This document shows, piece by piece, positions 176 through 8,927 of a stretch of 64,000 bases of DNA. Position 1 is the stretch's first letter. Each line of letters starts with the position of its first letter. The notes beneath the pieces are model-generated. The model was not told the DNA's origin. It made no database searches and worked only from the letters and a program-made list of their open reading frames with translations. Source of the stretch: Oscillospiraceae bacterium (GTDB lineage Bacteria; Bacillota; Clostridia; Oscillospirales; Oscillospiraceae); NCBI GenBank assembly GCA_910574635.1, contig CAJTCG010000006.1:124001-188000 (forward strand). Direction: 5' to 3'. A program made the position numbers and the translations under genes.

Positions 176-1186
176 TTAAGACGCGTGCAGATCCCGGCAG
201 GTGCTGCGCTTGATCAGCGTCGGCATCAGAATCTGATGGACATAGCCCTGGGTGCCGTTTTCAATTTTGTCCCGGAGCATATCCACCGCCTGGACGGCCA
301 TGTCCCGCTTGGGCTGTTCCATGGTGGTCAGCTCAATCCGGGGCAGGGCGGTGGAGGAGATGTTGTCGAAGCCGATGAGGCTCAATTGACCGGGAATATT
401 AATGCGGGCGTCGTCCGCCGCCTTCAAAACGCCCAGGGCGTTGGAGTCCGTGGAGGCGAAGATGGCGGAATAGTCGATGGGCTTGGCAAAGAGCTCCTTG
501 GCCAGCTGGTAGCCGCCGGTGATGGAGGAGCGGGTGAATTCGCTGTTGAAGAACCGGGGGGTCAGCCCCAGCTCCCGGCAGGCCCGGATATACCCCTCCG
601 CCCGGAACTGGTGGGTGGTGGTGTGGCGGCGGCCAAAGTAGAGGATATCCCGGTGGCCCAGCTCATAGAGGTACTTCGTGCCGATATAGGTCCCCCGGCT
701 GTTGTCCACGGCCACGTAGCTTTGAGGCTGGTCCCGGAGGTTCTCGCTGAGGAAGACCGTGGGCACCTGGTCCGTGTAGGCCCGGATGTTCTCATAGGTC
801 TTTGGGCTCTGGGGGACGATGAGGATGCCGTCCACCTGCCGGCTGAGAAGGAGCTTCACCACCGTCTTCTCCTGCTTCAAATCCGGCCCGGAGTTGCAGA
901 GCATGATGTTGTACCCATGCCCCCTGGCGCTCATCTCGGCGTAATAGGCCAGCTCCGACATAAACTGGTTGTCGATGGAGGGAACCACCAGCCCGATGAG
1001 CCCCGTGCGCTTGGTCACCATGGAGCGGGCCACGTAGTTGGTGGTATAGCCCATCTCGTCGCAGAGCTTGATAATGCGCTCCCGGGTGTCGCTGCCAATC
1101 TGGTGGCTGCCGGAAAGGGCGCGGGAGACGGTGGCGTAAGATACGCCGGCGGCTTTGGCCACGTCCTTCAAAGTTACACTTTTCAT
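176..1186 (-). CDS. LacI-family transcriptional repressor
   Basis: A 336-residue protein of the usual LacI length. The N-terminal helix-turn-helix and hinge occupy about residues 1-60 (VTLKDVAKAAGVSYATVSRA), followed by a periplasmic-binding-protein-like sensor domain (about 62-335) with the family phrase GLVVPSIDNQFMSEL. It is divergently placed to the HAD/mutase/transketolase operon that starts at 1525. LacI-type palindromes with an AAACGTTT core lie in its own leader (1217-1232) and at the operon promoter (1426-1441), so autoregulation and control of that operon are likely. The inducer is unknown; from the operon it should be a sugar, sugar phosphate or related metabolite. Confidence 0.93.
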   Translation of the reverse strand: MKSVTLKDVAKAAGVSYATVSRALSGSHQIGSDTRERIIKLCDEMGYTTNYVARSMVTKRTGLIGLVVPSIDNQFMSELAYYAEMSARGHGYNIMLCNSGPDLKQEKTVVKLLLSRQVDGILIVPQSPKTYENIRAYTDQVPTVFLSENLRDQPQSYVAVDNSRGTYIGTKYLYELGHRDILYFGRRHTTTHQFRAEGYIRACRELGLTPRFFNSEFTRSSITGGYQLAKELFAKPIDYSAIFASTDSNALGVLKAADDARINIPGQLSLIGFDNISSTALPRIELTTMEQPKRDMAVQAVDMLRDKIENGTQGYVHQILMPTLIKRSTCRDLHAS

Positions 1187-1524: not shown

Positions 1525-2259
1525 ATGACCCCCGATATCAAAACGATCTTTTTCGACGTTGGCAACACGCTGCGCATCGTGCTGAAGGAGCAGGACTTCA
1601 TCGACCGGGCCGAGGCCGGGCTGATGGAGCTCATCCACACCACCGAGACCCATGACGAGCTCTTTGCCAAGCTGGAGGAGCGCTGGAAGAAGTACCGCAA
1701 GATGTCCAAGGAGACCCTGCTGGACGCCTCTGAGGGCGAGCTGTGGACCCAGTACATGCTGCCGGAGTACGACGCCAACATGATCTTTGCCAACGCGGCG
1801 AAGCTGACCCGCCTGTGGCGGGATCACGACGGCCGCCGGGTAGCCCGGGCCGACGCCGTGGATACCATTAAGGAGCTCTGCGCCCGGGGCTATACCCTGG
1901 GCATCATCGCCAACACCGTCACCGAGACGGAAATCCCCGACTGGATGGCCGCTGACGGCGTGGCCCAGTGCTTCAAGACCACCATCCTCTCCTCCAAGGT
2001 CCGCCTGCGCAAGCCCAACCCGGAGATTTACCACCTGGCCTGCCGCTGCATCGGCACCCCGGAGGCCAACTGCGCCTACGTGGGCGACAATCCGGTCCGG
2101 GACGTGGAGGGCACCCAGGCCGCGGGCTTCGGCATGATGATCCGCATCGACGAGCCGGACACCCTGAACATGGAGCACGCCACCGGCAAGGAATTCACCC
2201 CCGACCATGTGATTACCGCCCTGAGCCAGCTTCTCGATATTTTCCCCGCCCGCGCTTAA
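1525..2259 (+). CDS. HAD-family hydrolase, first of three tandem paralogues
   Basis: A 244-residue HAD-superfamily (type IA, cap C1) protein. Motif I is FFDVGNTL (nucleophile D11), motif II lies around GIIANTV, motif III Lys is in RLRKPNPEIY and motif IV is YVGDNPVRDVEG. The residue two after the nucleophile, usually the acid/base Asp of phosphatases, is Gly. The same position is Gly in DLGN-type phosphatases such as YihX, so loss of activity does not follow. It is preceded by GAGGAGG and is the first gene of the LacI-controlled operon. It is clearly related along its whole length to the next two genes (shared RxKGRR/HDGRR region, KELCARGYTxGII, LRKP). The substrate is unknown; a phosphorylated sugar intermediate is inferred from context. 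Confidence 0.85.
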   Translation: MTPDIKTIFFDVGNTLRIVLKEQDFIDRAEAGLMELIHTTETHDELFAKLEERWKKYRKMSKETLLDASEGELWTQYMLPEYDANMIFANAAKLTRLWRDHDGRRVARADAVDTIKELCARGYTLGIIANTVTETEIPDWMAADGVAQCFKTTILSSKVRLRKPNPEIYHLACRCIGTPEANCAYVGDNPVRDVEGTQAAGFGMMIRIDEPDTLNMEHATGKEFTPDHVITALSQLLDIFPARA

Positions 2260-2292
2260 AATACATAAAGATACACAAGGAGGGAACACGCC

Positions 2293-3030
2293 ATGGATAC
2301 GACTAAGCGTTACAAGGCCGTCTTCTTCGACCTGGGAGGCACCCTGCGCATCGCCCTGCTGGAGGAGGCTTGGATGAGGCACGCCCGCCGGAAGATGGCG
2401 GAGATTGCCGGGTCCCCCGTGCCCTGCGAGGAGTTCTACCAGATGATTGAGGAGCGCTACGAGCCCTATCGGGACTGGGCGCTGCGCGAGAATAAGGAGT
2501 CCGGGGACGAGGAGCTTTGGTGCAAGTGGCTGCTGCCGGACTATGACCAGGCCCGCGTCAAGCAGGTCTGCCATGAGCTGAGCTACCAGTACCGCCAGTG
2601 CAAGGGCCGCCGGATCGTGGTGGACGGCGGCGTGGAGGTCATCAAGGGGCTCCATGAGCGGGGCTACAAGCTGGGCATCATCTCCAACCTCATCGGGGAG
2701 AACGAGGTCCCCGACTGGCTGGAGGAGGACGGCCTGGCGGAGTACTTCGACACCGTTATCCTCTCCTCCGTCTGCGGTCTGCGCAAGCCCTGCTCCGAGA
2801 TTTACAACGTCGCCTGCAGGGACATCGGCGTGGCGCCGGAGGACTGCGTGTCCGTGGCGGACAATGTGAAGCGGGACATCACCGGGGCCAAGGAGGCGGG
2901 AATCGGCTGCAACATCATCTTCCGCTCCCCGGAGAAGAAGCACGCCGTGGAGTTCACCGAGGCCAACCGCCCCGACGCGGTGATCAGCGGCTTCCGGGAG
3001 ATTCTGGATTTGCTTCCCCCCTTGAATTAA
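2293..3030 (+). CDS. HAD-family hydrolase, second tandem paralogue
   Basis: A 245-residue HAD protein 33 bases after the first copy. Motif I is FFDLGGTL (D12, with Gly in place of the second Asp), motif II GIISNLIG with the expected Ser, motif III in LRKPCSEIY and motif IV SVADNVKRDITG. The cap region holds YQYRQCKGRR, shared almost exactly with the third copy. Similar length and shared blocks show that the three genes arose by tandem duplication, then diverged enough for separate roles or for a hetero-oligomer. The start is supported by AGGAGGG about 10 bases upstream. Confidence 0.85.
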   Translation: MDTTKRYKAVFFDLGGTLRIALLEEAWMRHARRKMAEIAGSPVPCEEFYQMIEERYEPYRDWALRENKESGDEELWCKWLLPDYDQARVKQVCHELSYQYRQCKGRRIVVDGGVEVIKGLHERGYKLGIISNLIGENEVPDWLEEDGLAEYFDTVILSSVCGLRKPCSEIYNVACRDIGVAPEDCVSVADNVKRDITGAKEAGIGCNIIFRSPEKKHAVEFTEANRPDAVISGFREILDLLPPLN

Positions 3031-3045
3031 AACCAATTTGGGATG

Positions 3046-3065
3046 CGTCCGGGGAGACCCGGACG
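3046..3065. other. Intra-operon hairpin
   Basis: CGTCCGGG and CCCGGACG form a perfect 8-bp stem with a 4-base loop between the second and third HAD genes. There is no T-run after it, so an mRNA-stability or processing element is likelier than a terminator. Confidence 0.4.
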
Positions 3066-3111
3066 ATCCCGCGTTTCAGAGGAATAGACTGAACAAGGAG
3101 GCCGATAGGAA

Positions 3112-3888
3112 ATGAACACCGATATTCGTTACATCTTCCTGGACCTGGGAGGCACCTTCCGGGTCATCGACGAGGACCCCGCCTATCTCTCCGCCGCCCG
3201 GGCCAAGATTGCCGAGCTCTGCGGCGTGGAAACCGACAACCCCAACCAGTGGTTCAGCGATGTCATCGACAAGCGGTACGACAAGTACCGGGACTGGGCC
3301 CTGAAATTCATGTGCGAGGCCCCGGAGGAGGTCCTGTGGACCCGGTGGCTGGCCTATGACATGGACCGGGAGCGCATTTTGAAGAACGCCGCCGAGCTGA
3401 CCTACCAGTACCGCCAGACCAAGGGCCGCCGCACAGTGGTGGAGGGCGGCGCGGACACCGTCAAGGAGCTCTGCGCCCGGGGTTATACCATGGGCATCAT
3501 CAGCGATCTGGTTGGCAAGCGGGAGGTGGACGAGTGGCTGGACGCCGACGGCCTCCGGCCCTACTTCAAGACCGTCCAGCAGTCCTCCATTACCTATATC
3601 CGCAAGCCCGGCCCCGCCATCTACTACTACGCCATGGAGGAAGCGGGAGCCCAGCCGGAGAACTGCTGCTACGTGGGCGACAATTTGAACCGGGACATTG
3701 TGGGCGCCAAGGCCGTGGACTTCGGCATGACGGTGGCCGTGCAGTACGACCGGAGCAAGCCCCTGAAGCTGACGGAGGAGAACATGCCCGACGGCAAAAT
3801 CTACACATTCCCCCAGCTGCTGGACATCTTCCCCGAGGGGGGCAAGGTGGCCGTGGATAAGCTCATCGCCCCCAACGACGGACAATAA
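3112..3888 (+). CDS. HAD-family hydrolase, third tandem paralogue
   Basis: A 258-residue HAD protein. Motif I is FLDLGGTF (D11, Gly instead of the second Asp), motif II GIISDLVG, motif III YIRKPGPAIYY and motif IV YVGDNLNRDIVG. It shares YQYRQTKGRR and CARGYTMGIIS with its two neighbours. The C-terminus is about 12 residues longer than in the other copies. It ends 38 bases before the permuted mutase gene and belongs to the same operon. A phosphatase-type reaction on an intermediate of the pathway is inferred, not shown. Confidence 0.85.
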   Translation: MNTDIRYIFLDLGGTFRVIDEDPAYLSAARAKIAELCGVETDNPNQWFSDVIDKRYDKYRDWALKFMCEAPEEVLWTRWLAYDMDRERILKNAAELTYQYRQTKGRRTVVEGGADTVKELCARGYTMGIISDLVGKREVDEWLDADGLRPYFKTVQQSSITYIRKPGPAIYYYAMEEAGAQPENCCYVGDNLNRDIVGAKAVDFGMTVAVQYDRSKPLKLTEENMPDGKIYTFPQLLDIFPEGGKVAVDKLIAPNDGQ

Positions 3889-3926
3889 GGATTTGATTGG
3901 CTAATTGACTATAGGAGGTTTTTCAT

Positions 3927-5495
3927 ATGGCAGACATGAAACGCGGCGGCGCTCAGCTGGCTGAGGCCGTCAAGAAGGCATACGAGCTGGGCCAGGACGA
4001 CTATCATCTGGAGCCCATGGTCCTGGTGGAGGACGGCAAGCCGGTGGGCAAAATCGGAGACGGCGACGCGGCCATCTTCTGCTGCCGCCGGGGTGAGCGG
4101 GAGATCGAACTCACCGAGATGTTCACCGAGCCGGATTTTGACAAGGCAGATCGCCGGATGCTCCGGGACCTGGACTTCGTTATCATGACCATGTACCACG
4201 ACAAGTTCAAGGACCTGCCCATCGCCTTCGCCCCCGCCAAGGTGGTGAAGCCCCTGGCCCAGGTCCTCAGCGAGGCGGGGAAGACCCAGTTCCACTGCGC
4301 CGAGAGCGAGAAGTTCGCCCATGTGACCTTCTTCTTCAACGGCGGCGAAAACAACCCCTTCCCCGGGGAGGACGATGTGTGCATCCCCTCTCCCAAGGGC
4401 ATCGACTTCGACCAGCAGCCGGAGCTGTCCCTGCCCAAGGTGGCGGACACCGTTATGGACGCCCTGGGCAAATACGACTTCGTGGTGACCAACTTCGCCA
4501 ACGGAGACGTCATTGGGCACACCCAGAACACCGAGGCGAAAATCAAGGCCTGCGGCTATGTGAGCCAGTACCTGGATAAAGTGGTCAGCGACGCCCTGGG
4601 CAAGGGCTACGTGGTGGCCATCACGGCGGACCACGGAAACATCGAAAAGCTCTACACCGCCGCCGGGAAGCCCGACGGGGCCCACACCACCAATCTGGTG
4701 CCCTTCATCATGATCGACCCCGCCGATAAGAGCCCCATCTCCCTGCGGGACGGCTCCCTGGGCGACGTGTCTCCCACGGTGCTGAACGTCCTGGGCATCC
4801 CCCAGCCCGCCGAGATGGACGGCAAGCCCCTCTGCGAGGGCAAAACCTGGGGCGAGGGCCGGAAGATGCTCCTCATCATCTGCGACGGCTGGGGCCTGGG
4901 CACCGGAGACGACGGCGACGCCATCCATCTGGCCGACACCCCCTACTGGGATTCCCTGCTGGCAGACCAGTCCTGGTCCAAGCTCCACGCCTCCGGCGAG
5001 TTCGTGGGCCTGGGCGCGGGCAAGGCCGGCAACTCCGAGGCGGGCCACTCCAACCTGGGCGCGGGCCGCTGCGTGATGCAGGACGACGTCCGGCTGGACG
5101 CCGCCGTGAAGGACGGCAGCTTCAAGCAGAATCCCATTTTCCTCCAGGCCATTGAGCACGCCAAGAAAAACGGCACCGCTTTGCACCTGCTGGCCTACCT
5201 GACCTACAAGTCCTCCCACGGCTGCATCGACTACCCCCTGAACATCTGCGAGATGGCCCGGGACAATGGGCTCAGCCGGGTGTATCTCCACATCATCTTC
5301 GACGGCCGCTCCACCGAGCCCGGCTCCGCTCCCGCCCTGCTGGCGGAAGTGGATGAGAGGCTGGAAGCCATCGGCGTGGGCCGCGTCGTGGACGGCGTGG
5401 GCCGGGGCGTGGTTCTGGACCGGGACAAGAACTACGACAAGGTGAAACGGGCCTACGACGCCATGGTCGAGGGCACCGGAACCCAGTACGAATAA
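3927..5495 (+). CDS. Circularly permuted cofactor-independent phosphoglycerate mutase-like enzyme
   Basis: A 522-residue alkaline-phosphatase-superfamily protein that matches iPGM (GpmI) in two blocks in reversed order. Residues 1-302 match the usual C-terminal part: GDGDAAIF, R55 and R58, ESEKFAHVTFFFNGG (K129), NFANGDVIGHT (D194, H198), TADHGN (D235, H236), AHTTNLVPF (H253) and LGIPQPAEMDGKPL. After a linker (about 303-313) residues 314-520 match the usual N-terminus: LLIICDGWG (D320), GDAIHLADTPYWD, AGNSEAGHSNLGAGR (S370), then FDGRSTEPGSA and YDAMVEG. Thus all seven bimetal ligands/nucleophile of iPGM are present. Substrate-site motifs differ: GGVHSH is replaced by KSSHGC, and GRD by GRS. 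No intact iPGM lies nearby. Phosphate transfer or hydrolysis on a non-standard substrate is inferred. The start has AGGAGG 9 bases upstream. Confidence 0.9.
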   Translation: MADMKRGGAQLAEAVKKAYELGQDDYHLEPMVLVEDGKPVGKIGDGDAAIFCCRRGEREIELTEMFTEPDFDKADRRMLRDLDFVIMTMYHDKFKDLPIAFAPAKVVKPLAQVLSEAGKTQFHCAESEKFAHVTFFFNGGENNPFPGEDDVCIPSPKGIDFDQQPELSLPKVADTVMDALGKYDFVVTNFANGDVIGHTQNTEAKIKACGYVSQYLDKVVSDALGKGYVVAITADHGNIEKLYTAAGKPDGAHTTNLVPFIMIDPADKSPISLRDGSLGDVSPTVLNVLGIPQPAEMDGKPLCEGKTWGEGRKMLLIICDGWGLGTGDDGDAIHLADTPYWDSLLADQSWSKLHASGEFVGLGAGKAGNSEAGHSNLGAGRCVMQDDVRLDAAVKDGSFKQNPIFLQAIEHAKKNGTALHLLAYLTYKSSHGCIDYPLNICEMARDNGLSRVYLHIIFDGRSTEPGSAPALLAEVDERLEAIGVGRVVDGVGRGVVLDRDKNYDKVKRAYDAMVEGTGTQYE

Positions 5496-5506: not shown

Positions 5507-5537
5507 GGAAGGCCGGGACGTATTATCCCGGCCTTCC
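5507..5537 (+). terminator. Strong hairpin after the mutase gene
   Basis: GGAAGGCCGGGA pairs perfectly with TCCCGGCCTTCC across a 7-base loop. No T-run follows, so it may be only a partial or Rho-independent-like stop, or an mRNA 3' stabiliser. A second promoter lies downstream at 5608-5637. Confidence 0.5.
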
Positions 5538-5607: not shown

Positions 5608-5637
5608 TTGACGGGAACGGCGCTGGTGGAGTAAAAT
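5608..5637 (+). promoter_or_regulatory. Possible internal promoter for the transketolase genes
   Basis: TTGACG (5608-5613), an 18-base spacer and TAAAAT (5632-5637), about 60 bases before the transketolase N start. No LacI-type palindrome was seen here, so this promoter may be independent of the repressor. Confidence 0.5.
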
Positions 5638-5696: not shown

Positions 5697-6530
5697 ATGA
5701 ATGAGAAAAAGCTAAAAGTCCTGGCGGCTGAAATCCGGCTGGAGACGCTGAAGGTCATCCACAGCCGGGGCTTCGGCCACGTAGGCGGGTCCATGGACTT
5801 GGCGGACCTGATGGCGGTGCTGTACGGCGAAGTCATGAAGTTCGACCCGAAGAATCCCCGCTGGGAGGACCGGGACTGGCTGGTTTTGAGCAAGGGCCAC
5901 GCGGGACCTGTGGCCTACGCCACCTTCGGCCTGATGGGCTTCTATCCCATGGAAGACGCGTACACCCTGAATCAGCCGGGGACCAAGTTCCCCAGCCACA
6001 CGGACCGCAAGCTCACCCCCGGCGTGGACCTCACCACCGGCTCCCTGGGCCAGGGCGTCTCCACCGCTACCGGCGCGGCCCTGGGCAATAAGATCGACGG
6101 ACGGGACAGCACGGTCTTCTGCGTCATCGGCGACGGCGAGGCGGACGAGGGCCAGGTCTGGGAGGGCTTCCACTTCGCCTATGCCCACAAGCTGGACAAC
6201 ATCATCTACTTCATCGACAACAACGGCTACCAGCTGGACGGCTCTACGGACGATATCCTGGCCCACGGAGACATCGCGAAAAAGGTGGAGGGCTTCGGCC
6301 TGCACACCCAGGTCATTGACGGACACGACGTGACGGCCATCTACGAGGCCATCCAGAAAGCCAAGGAAACCAAGGGCGTGCCCTCCTGCATTGTGCTAAC
6401 TACCAGCAAGGGCAAGGGCGCGACGTTTGCGGAGCCCAAGCACGACCACTCCTCCCAGCCCAAGGAGGAGCAGTGGCTGGAGGCCATCGCCGCTTCCGAA
6501 AAAGAGCTGGAAGCCGCGAAGAACGCTTAA
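5697..6530 (+). CDS. Transketolase, N-terminal (TPP-binding) subunit
   Basis: A 277-residue protein equal to the N-terminal third of a full transketolase. It carries SKGHAGPVAYATF, the TPP motif GDGEADEGQVWEG running to FIDNNGYQLDG, and SLGQGVSTATGAALG. With the next gene it forms a split transketolase, a common arrangement in Clostridia, that transfers two-carbon ketol units between sugar phosphates. AAAGGAAG precedes the ATG. The position beside HAD, mutase and alcohol dehydrogenase genes suggests that it works on the substrate of this operon rather than only in the pentose phosphate pathway, but the sequence alone cannot show that. Confidence 0.93.
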   Translation: MNEKKLKVLAAEIRLETLKVIHSRGFGHVGGSMDLADLMAVLYGEVMKFDPKNPRWEDRDWLVLSKGHAGPVAYATFGLMGFYPMEDAYTLNQPGTKFPSHTDRKLTPGVDLTTGSLGQGVSTATGAALGNKIDGRDSTVFCVIGDGEADEGQVWEGFHFAYAHKLDNIIYFIDNNGYQLDGSTDDILAHGDIAKKVEGFGLHTQVIDGHDVTAIYEAIQKAKETKGVPSCIVLTTSKGKGATFAEPKHDHSSQPKEEQWLEAIAASEKELEAAKNA

Positions 6531-6545
6531 AGGAGGGTGAGAGAA

Positions 6546-7517
6546 ATGAATGTGAAACTGATTGGCAAGCATGAAAAGGATTCCCGGGCCTGCCGGGACG
6601 GCCTGGCTCTGACCCTGAACGAGCTGATGGCCGAGGACAAGAGCATCGTGTATGTAGACTGCGATCTGATGGGCTGCATCAATACCAAGCAGCTGGTCAA
6701 GAATTACCCCGACCGGGCCTTTGAGGCGGGCATCGCCGAGGGCAACGCCGCCGGCGTGGCCGCGGGCCTGGCCGCCACGGGGAAGAAGGTTTTCTTCCAC
6801 TCCTTCGGCACCTTCTCCAGCCGCCGGTGCTATGACCAGATCTACATGAGCGCCGCCTACGCGGGCCTGAGCGTCCGGGTGCTGGGCTCCGACGCGGGCG
6901 TGACGGCGGCCTTCAACGGCGGCACCCACATGCCCCTGGAGGACGCGGCCATGTACCTGAGCATCCCCACCGCCACGGTGATCGACCCCGCCGACTACGA
7001 CCAGCTGGCCAGCGTCACCAAGGGATTGGTGAATGTCGAGGGCGTGAGCTTCACCCGCTTCGTCCGCAAGGACGTGATTCGGGTCTATGACGAGGGCTCT
7101 GAGTTTGAAATCGGCAAGGGCGTGGTGCTCCACGAAAGCGATAAGGACCAGGCCACCATCATCACCTCCGGCATCATGGTGGACGAGAGCCTGAAAGCCT
7201 ATGAGGCCCTCCAGGCCGAGGGGATCAGCGTCCGGGTGATCGACATGTTCACCTGGAAGCCCCTGGACGAGGAGCTGGTCATCAAGGCCGCCAAGGAAAC
7301 CGGGGCCATTGTCACCGCCGAGAACCACAATACCTGCTGCGGCCTGGGTTCTGTCGTGGCCAACTGCCTGGCGAAGAACTGCCCCACGGTGCAGGAGTTC
7401 GTGGGCGTGCAGGACGAGTTCGGCCAGGTAGGTCCCCAGGCGTTCCTGATGGACACCTACGGCCTCCGCGCGGCCAACATCGTCGAGGCCGTGAAAAAGG
7501 CGATTGCCCGGAAGTAA
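6546..7517 (+). CDS. Transketolase, C-terminal subunit
   Basis: A 323-residue protein with the pyrimidine-binding and C-terminal transketolase domains: FEAGIAEGNAAGVAAGLA (the family Glu), FNGGTHMPLEDAAMYLSIP and TAENHNTCCGLGSVVANCL. It follows the N subunit by 15 bases and is certainly its partner. I chose the ATG at 6546, which is 9 bases after AGGAGG; the GTG at 6537 overlaps that ribosome-binding site. The normal ATG-proximal length of split C subunits (about 310-330 residues) supports this. Confidence 0.92.
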   Translation: MNVKLIGKHEKDSRACRDGLALTLNELMAEDKSIVYVDCDLMGCINTKQLVKNYPDRAFEAGIAEGNAAGVAAGLAATGKKVFFHSFGTFSSRRCYDQIYMSAAYAGLSVRVLGSDAGVTAAFNGGTHMPLEDAAMYLSIPTATVIDPADYDQLASVTKGLVNVEGVSFTRFVRKDVIRVYDEGSEFEIGKGVVLHESDKDQATIITSGIMVDESLKAYEALQAEGISVRVIDMFTWKPLDEELVIKAAKETGAIVTAENHNTCCGLGSVVANCLAKNCPTVQEFVGVQDEFGQVGPQAFLMDTYGLRAANIVEAVKKAIARK

Positions 7518-7739: not shown

Positions 7740-8927
7740 ATGGCTCAGAAAATGGACGCTTTTTCCGCCGCTCTGATGGCCGACAAGCGTGAAATCATCT
7801 TTGCTCCCACCGTGTACAAGTTCGACACCTTCGCCGCCATGGCGGAGGAGTTCAAGCTGGGCGAGCGGGACGTGGTGCTGACCAACGAGTTCATCTACAC
7901 CCCCTTCATGAAGGAGCTGAACCTCAAGTGCCAGTTCGTGTTCCAGGAGAAGTTCGGCGCGGGCGAGCCCAGCGAGGAAATGATCCAGGTCATGTACGAC
8001 GCCATCCCCTATGAGAGCTACGACCGGGTTATCGCCGTTGGCGGCGGCGCCATCATGGACCTTTGCAAGCTGCTGGGCTGCAAGCGCCCCGACACCGTGC
8101 ACAACCTGTATTTCAAGCGCTTCCCCGTCCAGCATGAAAAGGACGTCATTGCTATCCCCACCACCTGCGGAACGGGCTCCGAGTGCACCAATATCTCCGT
8201 GGCGATTGTCAAGGACGAAAAAGACGGCGTGCTCACCGGCGGCGAGACGAAGCTGGGCCTGGTGTCCGACGACATCATCCCCAACAAGGTCTGCCTGATT
8301 CCCGACCTCATCAAGACCCTTCCTTACAAGCCCTTCGCCTGCTCCGCCATTGACGCCCTGGTCCACGCCACCGAGTCCTTCCTGAGCCCCCACCGCAAGA
8401 CCATGACCTCCGAGCTCTTCTCCGAGAAAGCCATGGACATGATCCTCAAGGGCTTCAAGCTCATCGACGAGAAGGGCCAGGACGCCCGGTTCGAGTATCT
8501 GGACGAGTTCGTCACCGCCAGCTTCTACGCAGGCATCGCCTTCCTGAAGGCGGGCTGCGGCCCTGTCCACGGCATGAGCTTCCCCCTGGGCGGCACCTAT
8601 CACGTAGCCCACGGCGAGAGCAACTATATGCTCTTCGGCGCCATCATGGACTACTATGACGAAAAGAACCCCGACGGCGAGATCATGCGCTTCAAGGAGC
8701 TGGTGGCCCGGATTCTCGGCTGCGAGGCCAAGAACGCCATCCCCGAAATGAACGCCCTGCTCCAGCGCATCCTGCCCCTGCGTCCCCTGCGGGACTGCGG
8801 CTTCACCGAGGAGGACTTCAAAAAGTTCCCCCAGTCTGTCGAGGCCAACCAGCAGCGCCTCATGACCAACGCCTACTATCCCTTCGACCTGGAGAGCGAG
8901 GAAGCCATCTACCGCAAGTGCTTCTAA
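7740..8927 (+). CDS. Iron-containing alcohol dehydrogenase, 4-hydroxybutyrate dehydrogenase-like
   Basis: A 395-residue group III (Fe-ADH) protein. The nucleotide motif is GGGAIMD and the family signature is PTTCGTGSECTNISV. Metal ligands are in the segment SAIDALVHATE and in GPVHGMSFPLGGTYHVAHGE. From memory the closest family member is clostridial 4-hydroxybutyrate dehydrogenase (shared VYKFDT, LTNEFIY, FQEKFGAGEPS-like start and the LPYKPF segment). It should reduce a small aldehyde with NAD(P)H. As last gene of the operon it probably removes the aldehyde left by the transketolase step, which is inference. AAAGGAG lies 9 bases before the ATG. Confidence 0.9.
   Translation: MAQKMDAFSAALMADKREIIFAPTVYKFDTFAAMAEEFKLGERDVVLTNEFIYTPFMKELNLKCQFVFQEKFGAGEPSEEMIQVMYDAIPYESYDRVIAVGGGAIMDLCKLLGCKRPDTVHNLYFKRFPVQHEKDVIAIPTTCGTGSECTNISVAIVKDEKDGVLTGGETKLGLVSDDIIPNKVCLIPDLIKTLPYKPFACSAIDALVHATESFLSPHRKTMTSELFSEKAMDMILKGFKLIDEKGQDARFEYLDEFVTASFYAGIAFLKAGCGPVHGMSFPLGGTYHVAHGESNYMLFGAIMDYYDEKNPDGEIMRFKELVARILGCEAKNAIPEMNALLQRILPLRPLRDCGFTEEDFKKFPQSVEANQQRLMTNAYYPFDLESEEAIYRKCF

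Follow-up and report, generated by a model that had tools for sequence, protein, structure and literature searches.

A gene of an Oscillospiraceae bacterium encodes a natural circular permutation of a relative of cofactor-independent phosphoglycerate mutase (iPGM), in which the C-terminal block of the family precedes the N-terminal block. The gene lies in the 64,000-nucleotide stretch of DNA analysed here (the window), and the parts of its product, named cpPGM, were delimited by alignment to the iPGM of B. stearothermophilus (1ejj) as the reference:

3927..5495, + strand: circularly permuted iPGM-like protein (cpPGM), 522 amino acids
3963..4832, + strand: iPGM C-terminal block, placed first; residues 13-302, aligned to 1ejj 218-508
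4833..4865, + strand: linker between the old C- and N-termini; residues 303-313
4866..5489, + strand: iPGM N-terminal block, placed last; residues 314-521, aligned to 1ejj 6-213

The first block contains the end of the transferase domain and then the phosphatase-domain residues E128, K129, D194, H198, D235, H236, and H253, and the last block contains D320, the nucleophile S370, and the transferase residues K428, H431, R461, S462, R493, and R499. An earlier note on this DNA had read the order as C-terminal half followed by N-terminal half, with a linker at residues 303-313 and a new N-terminus inside the segment between the YDAxVxG and (D/E)EFV-type regions of iPGM, and had proposed an alignment to GpmI structures as a check; in that alignment the blocks pair in swapped order, the linker is identified by its lack of alignment between the two HMMER stretches, and the block edges at 1ejj 218 and 213 support the placement of the new termini. 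The linker varies in sequence and length among permuted homologues. The swap was also seen with the TIGR01307 and Pfam models, and neither solved structures nor profiles yielded an end-to-end alignment in the normal iPGM order. As in other naturally permuted proteins, the blocks are exchanged within a single frame, the old termini are joined, and the arrangement is conserved in relatives.

The protein scores 459.6 bits against TIGR01307 (cut-off, 330.65), a score made of two stretches, 387.6 bits against NF003897 (below the cut-off of 862), and 196 bits against the Metalloenzyme family of the alkaline phosphatase superfamily (PF01676; gathering threshold, 24.3), with the metal ligands kept. 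Because the TIGR01307 cut-off is passed, annotation that scores both stretches together could well call cpPGM-like proteins phosphoglycerate mutase and so mask them. Two domains, a serine nucleophile, and the metal ligands are shared with iPGM/GpmI (TIGR01307; 1ejj, 1o98), whereas the swapped halves, the new linker, a serine in place of Asp154, a rebuilt transferase side, and the company of HAD and inositol genes set cpPGM apart. The match to phosphopentomutase, a mutase of the same superfamily, is much weaker and shorter than that to iPGM.

The new termini arose within the transferase domain, which spans about 77-310 in the B. stearothermophilus enzyme, and the short linker joins the old ones. 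Since the chain break falls inside the transferase domain, that domain is divided in cpPGM into two segments (about 1-102 and 385-522), and the phosphatase domain forms a single uninterrupted stretch (about 103-384). Normal iPGM has the opposite arrangement, a phosphatase domain split by the transferase insert, as in the C. elegans enzyme (phosphatase part, 27-95 and 339-538; transferase part, 96-338, according to the available text of PMC8113725). An AlphaFold2 model built from 31 permuted sequences was confident (pLDDT 91.5, pTM 0.83), and Foldseek superposed it on 1ejj over about 297 columns (TM 0.51-0.53); a second sequential structure aligner matched the first block alone, with 43% identity across the superposed part. 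A comparison of a predicted structure with iPGM had also been suggested in the earlier note; with sequential aligners the superposition covers the first block, which is what such aligners are expected to return for a permutation.

Many related Clostridia carry the permuted form. A search of 400 genomes of the family with the whole cpPGM protein recovered it in 10 genomes, including that of the window; scoring was limited to three candidates for each genome, and a carrier may therefore be missed. The nine other proteins are 66 to 90% identical; seven are full length, one (L013) is cut at a contig end, and one (L007) is frame-broken. The break in the latter (L007:1360-3055, in the one-contig genome G355) falls near residue 470 and may be a sequencing error or gene decay. 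A scan of GTDB species genomes, with search patterns spanning K428 and S462, provided 155 relatives, the best 80 of which were analysed; the gene was uninterrupted at 75 of these loci and permuted in all 75, and the remaining five were cut at a contig end or had a broken frame. Six family-draw loci recur among the 80 (L034/L075, L035/L060, L037/L104, L039/L098, L040/L111, and L042/L076). By name, most carriers are assigned to Oscillospiraceae, Oscillibacter, Lachnospiraceae, or unclassified Clostridia, and rumen, rectum, and faeces are the sources of many. Oscillibacter sp. 1-3, O. valericigenes, and [Clostridium] asparagiforme DSM 15981 are among the isolates, the last with two copies.

This breadth, found by the genome search for the permuted order that the earlier note had called for, upholds its view that the continuous frame is genuine and leads us to reject, with next to no residual doubt, an assembly or annotation artefact fusing two gene fragments: the order is identical in every uninterrupted gene across many assemblies, which include isolate genomes and, for C. 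asparagiforme, a complete chromosome, and a second copy of either half is absent from the 80 loci, except the frame-broken L084. A remnant of tandem duplication was likewise rejected, as L084 is the sole locus with an extra half and the upstream extensions of long frames have no convincing similarity to iPGM (best E-value, 0.4). A phage or plasmid origin was rejected as well, with no relative among viral contigs; the plasmid (44) and phage (22) records that match cpPGM are all below 60% identity, and the matches listed (eight of each kind) are all in two pieces.

Phylogenetically, cpPGM is a paralogue of iPGM whose permuted form arose once. Separate trees for each half (31 permuted and 41 canonical rows; a quick search, with a long-branch warning for the C-half tree) both separate the permuted from the canonical rows by a branch with SH-aLRT support of 100, and this shared, fully supported split indicates one origin, with both halves having moved together. 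The stem leading to the permuted clade is long, at about 2.5 changes per column. No permuted ancestor lacking the pocket signature described below was found, either in a draw of genomes from the class, where a search at an E-value of 1e-100 returned the window's own genome only, or among the best 80 of the 155 GTDB relatives. A normal iPGM of full length is encoded on a different contig of the own genome, and residues 12-303 of cpPGM are 44% identical to it. Unpermuted iPGM was sought in 30 carriers, a subset of 50 carriers standing for 50 of the 80 loci, and 24 of them have a copy that exceeds the cut-off, scoring 673-746 bits in 22 and about 435 in two with divergent copies; two others have fragments, and none was seen in four. 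The two divergent relatives (G439:C10:15624-17162 and G446:C45:37050-38588), full length at about 435 bits to TIGR01307, are the only unpermuted copies over the cut-off in their genomes, the other full-length ones scoring 673 to 746.

The column-by-column comparison of the active site drew on 76 permuted sequences and 41 canonical ones, the latter remaining from 51 loci after 10 were dropped (motif filter, no complete frame); 30 of the 51 were best-scoring matches of a phylum search. Residue roles (nucleophile, metal ligands, Glu335/Lys336, and substrate residues) are those we assume for iPGM in 1ejj numbering. All nine compared residues on the phosphatase side (D12, S62, E335, K336, D403, H407, D444, H445, and H462) are invariant in both groups, and six of seven on the transferase side (H123, R153, R185, R191, R261, and R264) are kept and identical, such that cpPGM retains 15 of the 16 compared catalytic residues. 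The exception is position 154, where all 41 canonical sequences have Asp and all 76 permuted ones have Ser. Asp154 presumably has a substrate-side role in iPGM; among the matches listed in a search of the full-text literature, no paper treating it was found. Four further positions changed between canonical and permuted forms: 120 (Gly to Lys), 260 (Phe/Tyr to Arg), 186 (Tyr/Phe to Gly), and 187 (Tyr to Val/Ile/Leu). All five changes lie on the substrate-binding transferase side, and two aromatics are lost. The constancy of the S462 and K428 columns is partly a product of selection, as the GTDB loci were found with patterns including both, and the two residues are also present in the nine aligned family genomes (the window's own included), which were found with the whole protein, and in the tenth (L007), upstream of its frame break.

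The restriction of changes to the transferase side has the appearance of a new substrate handled by the old phosphoserine chemistry: the unchanged phosphatase side suggests, by analogy with the family, that the phosphoserine should still form, and the gain of Lys and Arg with the loss of Asp would suit a substrate larger and more negative than phosphoglycerate. Judged from sequence, the pocket should be larger and more basic. The possibility that cpPGM is a catalytically dead or regulatory relative retained for binding would fit the loss of Asp154, which never varies among the canonical sequences, but is very improbable given that the nucleophile, metal ligands, Lys336, and the compared arginines and histidine are invariant in 76 of 76 sequences and that the gene is conserved beside enzyme genes.

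Within the window, cpPGM is the last gene of a block with three HAD-family hydrolases and is followed by transketolase genes:

176..1186, − strand: LacI-family regulator, divergent from the HAD and cpPGM genes
1525..2259, + strand: HAD-family hydrolase 1, upstream, motif FFDVGNTL; conserved neighbour
2293..3030, + strand: HAD-family hydrolase 2, motif FFDLGGTL; conserved neighbour
3112..3888, + strand: HAD-family hydrolase 3, motif FLDLGGTF; directly upstream of cpPGM
3913..3918, + strand: AGGAGG ribosome-binding site, 8 nt upstream of the cpPGM start codon (ATG)
5507..5537, + strand: strong hairpin without a T run, directly 3' of cpPGM (z -4.45; 88 nt folded)
5697..6530, + strand: transketolase N-terminal subunit, with a relative inside the iol operon of genome G358
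6537..7517, + strand: transketolase C-terminal subunit, downstream of the N-terminal subunit gene
7740..8927, + strand: iron-containing alcohol dehydrogenase, with a 90% identical relative adjoining the iol genes of G358

Where there was room for the neighbour on the contig, a HAD match lies directly upstream of cpPGM at 67 of 73 loci (absent in L070, L071, L094, L096, L103, and L118) and a divergent LacI match at 52 of 56, and a transketolase occurs within 6 kb downstream at 16 of 50 loci. The number of HAD genes per operon is three in the window and up to five elsewhere. The HADs of the window (1525-3888) have Gly at position +2 of the nucleophile motif (DVGNT, DLGGT, and DLGGT), where DxD phosphatases have Asp; YihX of E. 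coli, with a DLGN motif, is an active sugar phosphatase. The hairpin, which is not among the predicted terminator-like sites, separates the HAD-cpPGM block from the transketolase genes and is possibly an operon boundary or attenuator. A promoter-like site (10/12 match) occurs at 5608-5637; the region has six sites of this kind, where 1.8 would be expected. PHP-like and PfkB-like kinase genes are located at the start of the window and beyond it, neither product with an NCBIfam name, the kinase matching Pfam PfkB at 35.5 bits. Upstream of the LacI gene at four loci (L058, L059, L071, and L075, the last being the L034 contig) are genes whose products resemble, by eye, a PiT phosphate transporter and a DUF47 (PhoU-like) protein; their presence would be in keeping with the release of phosphate by the pathway.

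The presence of cpPGM nearly implies that of iolE, and not the reverse. In the family draw, iolE was over the cut-off in nine of 400 genomes, comprising seven of the 10 carriers (G000, G014, G029, G155, G210, G355, and G358) and two of the 390 non-carriers (G018 and G241; Fisher p = 1.4e-11, with genomes treated as independent of kinship); the carriers without it are G234, G258, and G329, the last 73% complete. Among the 50 carriers drawn from the GTDB loci, of which at least four (L060, L075, L104, and L111) are also in the family draw, iolE was over the cut-off in 42, present as fragments or with a broken frame in two, and without a match near the cut-off in six. Of 291 genomes drawn from the class, 23 have iolE and cpPGM was detected in the own genome only, and the 22 iolE-positive genomes without a detected cpPGM indicate that it is not needed for inositol use.

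The two are also physically linked in some carriers, with iolE within 17 kb of cpPGM in eight of 30 (G421, G426, G428, G432, G439, G446, G448, and G449), 442 kb away on one contig in G402, and in others on separate draft contigs. In the own genome, contig C5 carries iolE, iolB, and iolD, and iolG matches over the cut-off are found on C1 and C3. Four genomes (G439, G421, G428, and G432) share the order GAPDH-II, PGK, transketolase, LarA, iolE, iolB, iolD, iolG-like, ABC importer, HAD, LacI, HADs, and cpPGM, with an extra malic enzyme gene between LarA and iolE in G439. At locus L120, cpPGM is followed by iolG, type II GAPDH, PGK, the transketolase halves, LarA, malic enzyme (a best match below the cut-off), iolE, iolB, and the first part of iolD (iolB and iolD named by eye). 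In G426, neither GAPDH-II nor PGK accompanies the iol genes and the importer, and in G358 the iol genes are followed by the transketolase halves and the alcohol dehydrogenase, with adjoining CoA-transferase-like and enoyl-CoA-hydratase-like genes that are both below curated cut-offs. Inositol clusters with an archaeal-type GAPDH-II, PGK, a split transketolase, and a LarA-family racemase were seen at L120 (11531-18091), L127, L130-L132, and L134; the racemase of L120 corresponds to NF052593 malate racemase, and a malic-enzyme gene is present in L120 and L127. Such clusters are possibly an extended inositol fermentation module. In comparison with known iol clusters, such as that for inositol conversion to propionate in Anaerostipes described in the available text of PMC8355322, iolG, iolE, iolD, and iolB are in common, as are the CoA-transferase-like and enoyl-CoA-hydratase-like genes in the case of G358, whereas the cpPGM-linked clusters add cpPGM, HADs, a split transketolase, and an iron-type ABC importer; the main text of PMC8355322, as available, has no mention of phosphoglycerate, transketolase, or haloacid. 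Collectively, these distributions make it highly probable that cpPGM has a role in the inositol-catabolic network of these Clostridia.

As a more specific function, cpPGM may act on inositol phosphates in concert with the HADs, as a phosphatase or mutase that forms a serine phosphoenzyme, a reading to which we assign a probability of roughly 0.4. An inositol phosphate is a tentative choice of substrate, proposed because it fits the charge of the pocket, the vicinal oxygens needed by iPGM chemistry, the phosphatase-type partners, and the Iol enzymes downstream. In this proposal cpPGM, together with the operon HADs, would remove or move phosphate on an inositol phosphate, possibly derived from phytate, and the freed inositol would then enter the IolG-E-D-B route. 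The protein is not a member of the known phytase families (histidine acid, beta-propeller, and PTP-like) by Pfam at an E-value of 0.001, its only matches being Metalloenzyme, iPGM_N, and a sub-cut-off Sulfatase. In a bolder reading, cpPGM as inositol-phosphate mutase or phosphatase would pass the phosphate between vicinal oxygens of the inositol ring by way of the phosphoserine, within a hitherto undescribed intracellular pathway of importer, HADs, cpPGM, and Iol enzymes in gut Clostridia; this is somewhat unlikely.

The importer component is only suggestive as evidence for the uptake of inositol phosphates. A plain sequence search with the binding protein from the clusters gave no believable relative of known structure; its fold is that of ferric, metal-citrate, and hexose-phosphate binders (AfuA, VcA0625), with metal-citrate and iron binders as the nearest structures in a fold search that does not discriminate among metal-citrate, iron, and hexose phosphate. 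The AfuABC-type hexose-phosphate importers (4r72-4r75) are described systems comparable with this importer. The C. asparagiforme copies (L094 and L118) have no HAD or LacI match nearby and the genome has no iolE over the cut-off; one adjoins an iron/AfuA-type ABC importer without iol genes, its binding protein closest in sequence to Fe3+-type binding proteins, and the other adjoins an RpiR-type regulator and a tripartite-tricarboxylate-type transporter (both named by eye). The hexose-phosphate and metal-citrate binders among the relatives, and the copy beside such an importer without iol genes, would fit a cpPGM that acts, as phosphatase or mutase, on a different phosphorylated compound, such as a sugar phosphate, a phospho-sugar acid, or a phosphorylated intermediate of inositol breakdown, and that belongs to the inositol network for some other reason. 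This we regard as somewhat unlikely, as the association with iolE is strong and iol genes co-cluster with cpPGM in several lineages.

The main rival to an inositol-phosphate enzyme is a phosphoglycerate mutase dedicated to triose phosphates derived from inositol, with the permutation and pocket changes as drift in a mutase that is still active. GAPDH-II, PGK, and cpPGM would then catalyse three successive steps of glycolysis controlled by inositol, the genes are co-clustered in several genomes so that a plain glycolytic role also fits some clusters, and the protein passes the TIGR01307 equivalog cut-off with nearly all of the compared catalytic residues kept. Nonetheless, this explanation is unlikely, since the exchange of Asp154 for Ser is absolute between the two groups and neighbouring residues change with it, an unpermuted iPGM over the cut-off is already present in most of the carriers tested, the constant partners are HAD genes and not GAPDH or PGK, and the NF003897 cut-off is missed by a protein that passes TIGR01307. 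It follows that, of the identification as a phosphoglycerate mutase in the earlier note, membership in the iPGM family stands and the mutase role is doubtful, given the separate normal iPGM, the loss of Asp154, and the inositol-linked context; cpPGM is probably not an ordinary or second glycolytic mutase.

A full-text search, judged by titles and the openings of abstracts and with most subscription literature outside it, found no report of circular permutation in phosphoglycerate mutase, iPGM, or the alkaline phosphatase superfamily, and the terms 'permut' and 'fusion' are absent from the main text, as available, of a survey of bacterial phosphoglycerate mutases (PMC2964296). A natural permutation in a family of central metabolism, fixed as a widespread subfamily, represents a clean natural experiment on how the order of domain insertion may be inverted while an active site formed between domains is retained. 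In a 2026 study of pig gut isolates (PMC12838507), strains are reported to have phytase activity although no phytase gene could be recognised in them, and the existence of unknown phytate phosphatases is proposed. With its rebuilt substrate side and its association with inositol catabolism, cpPGM offers a testable lead to the missing inositol-phosphate enzymes.
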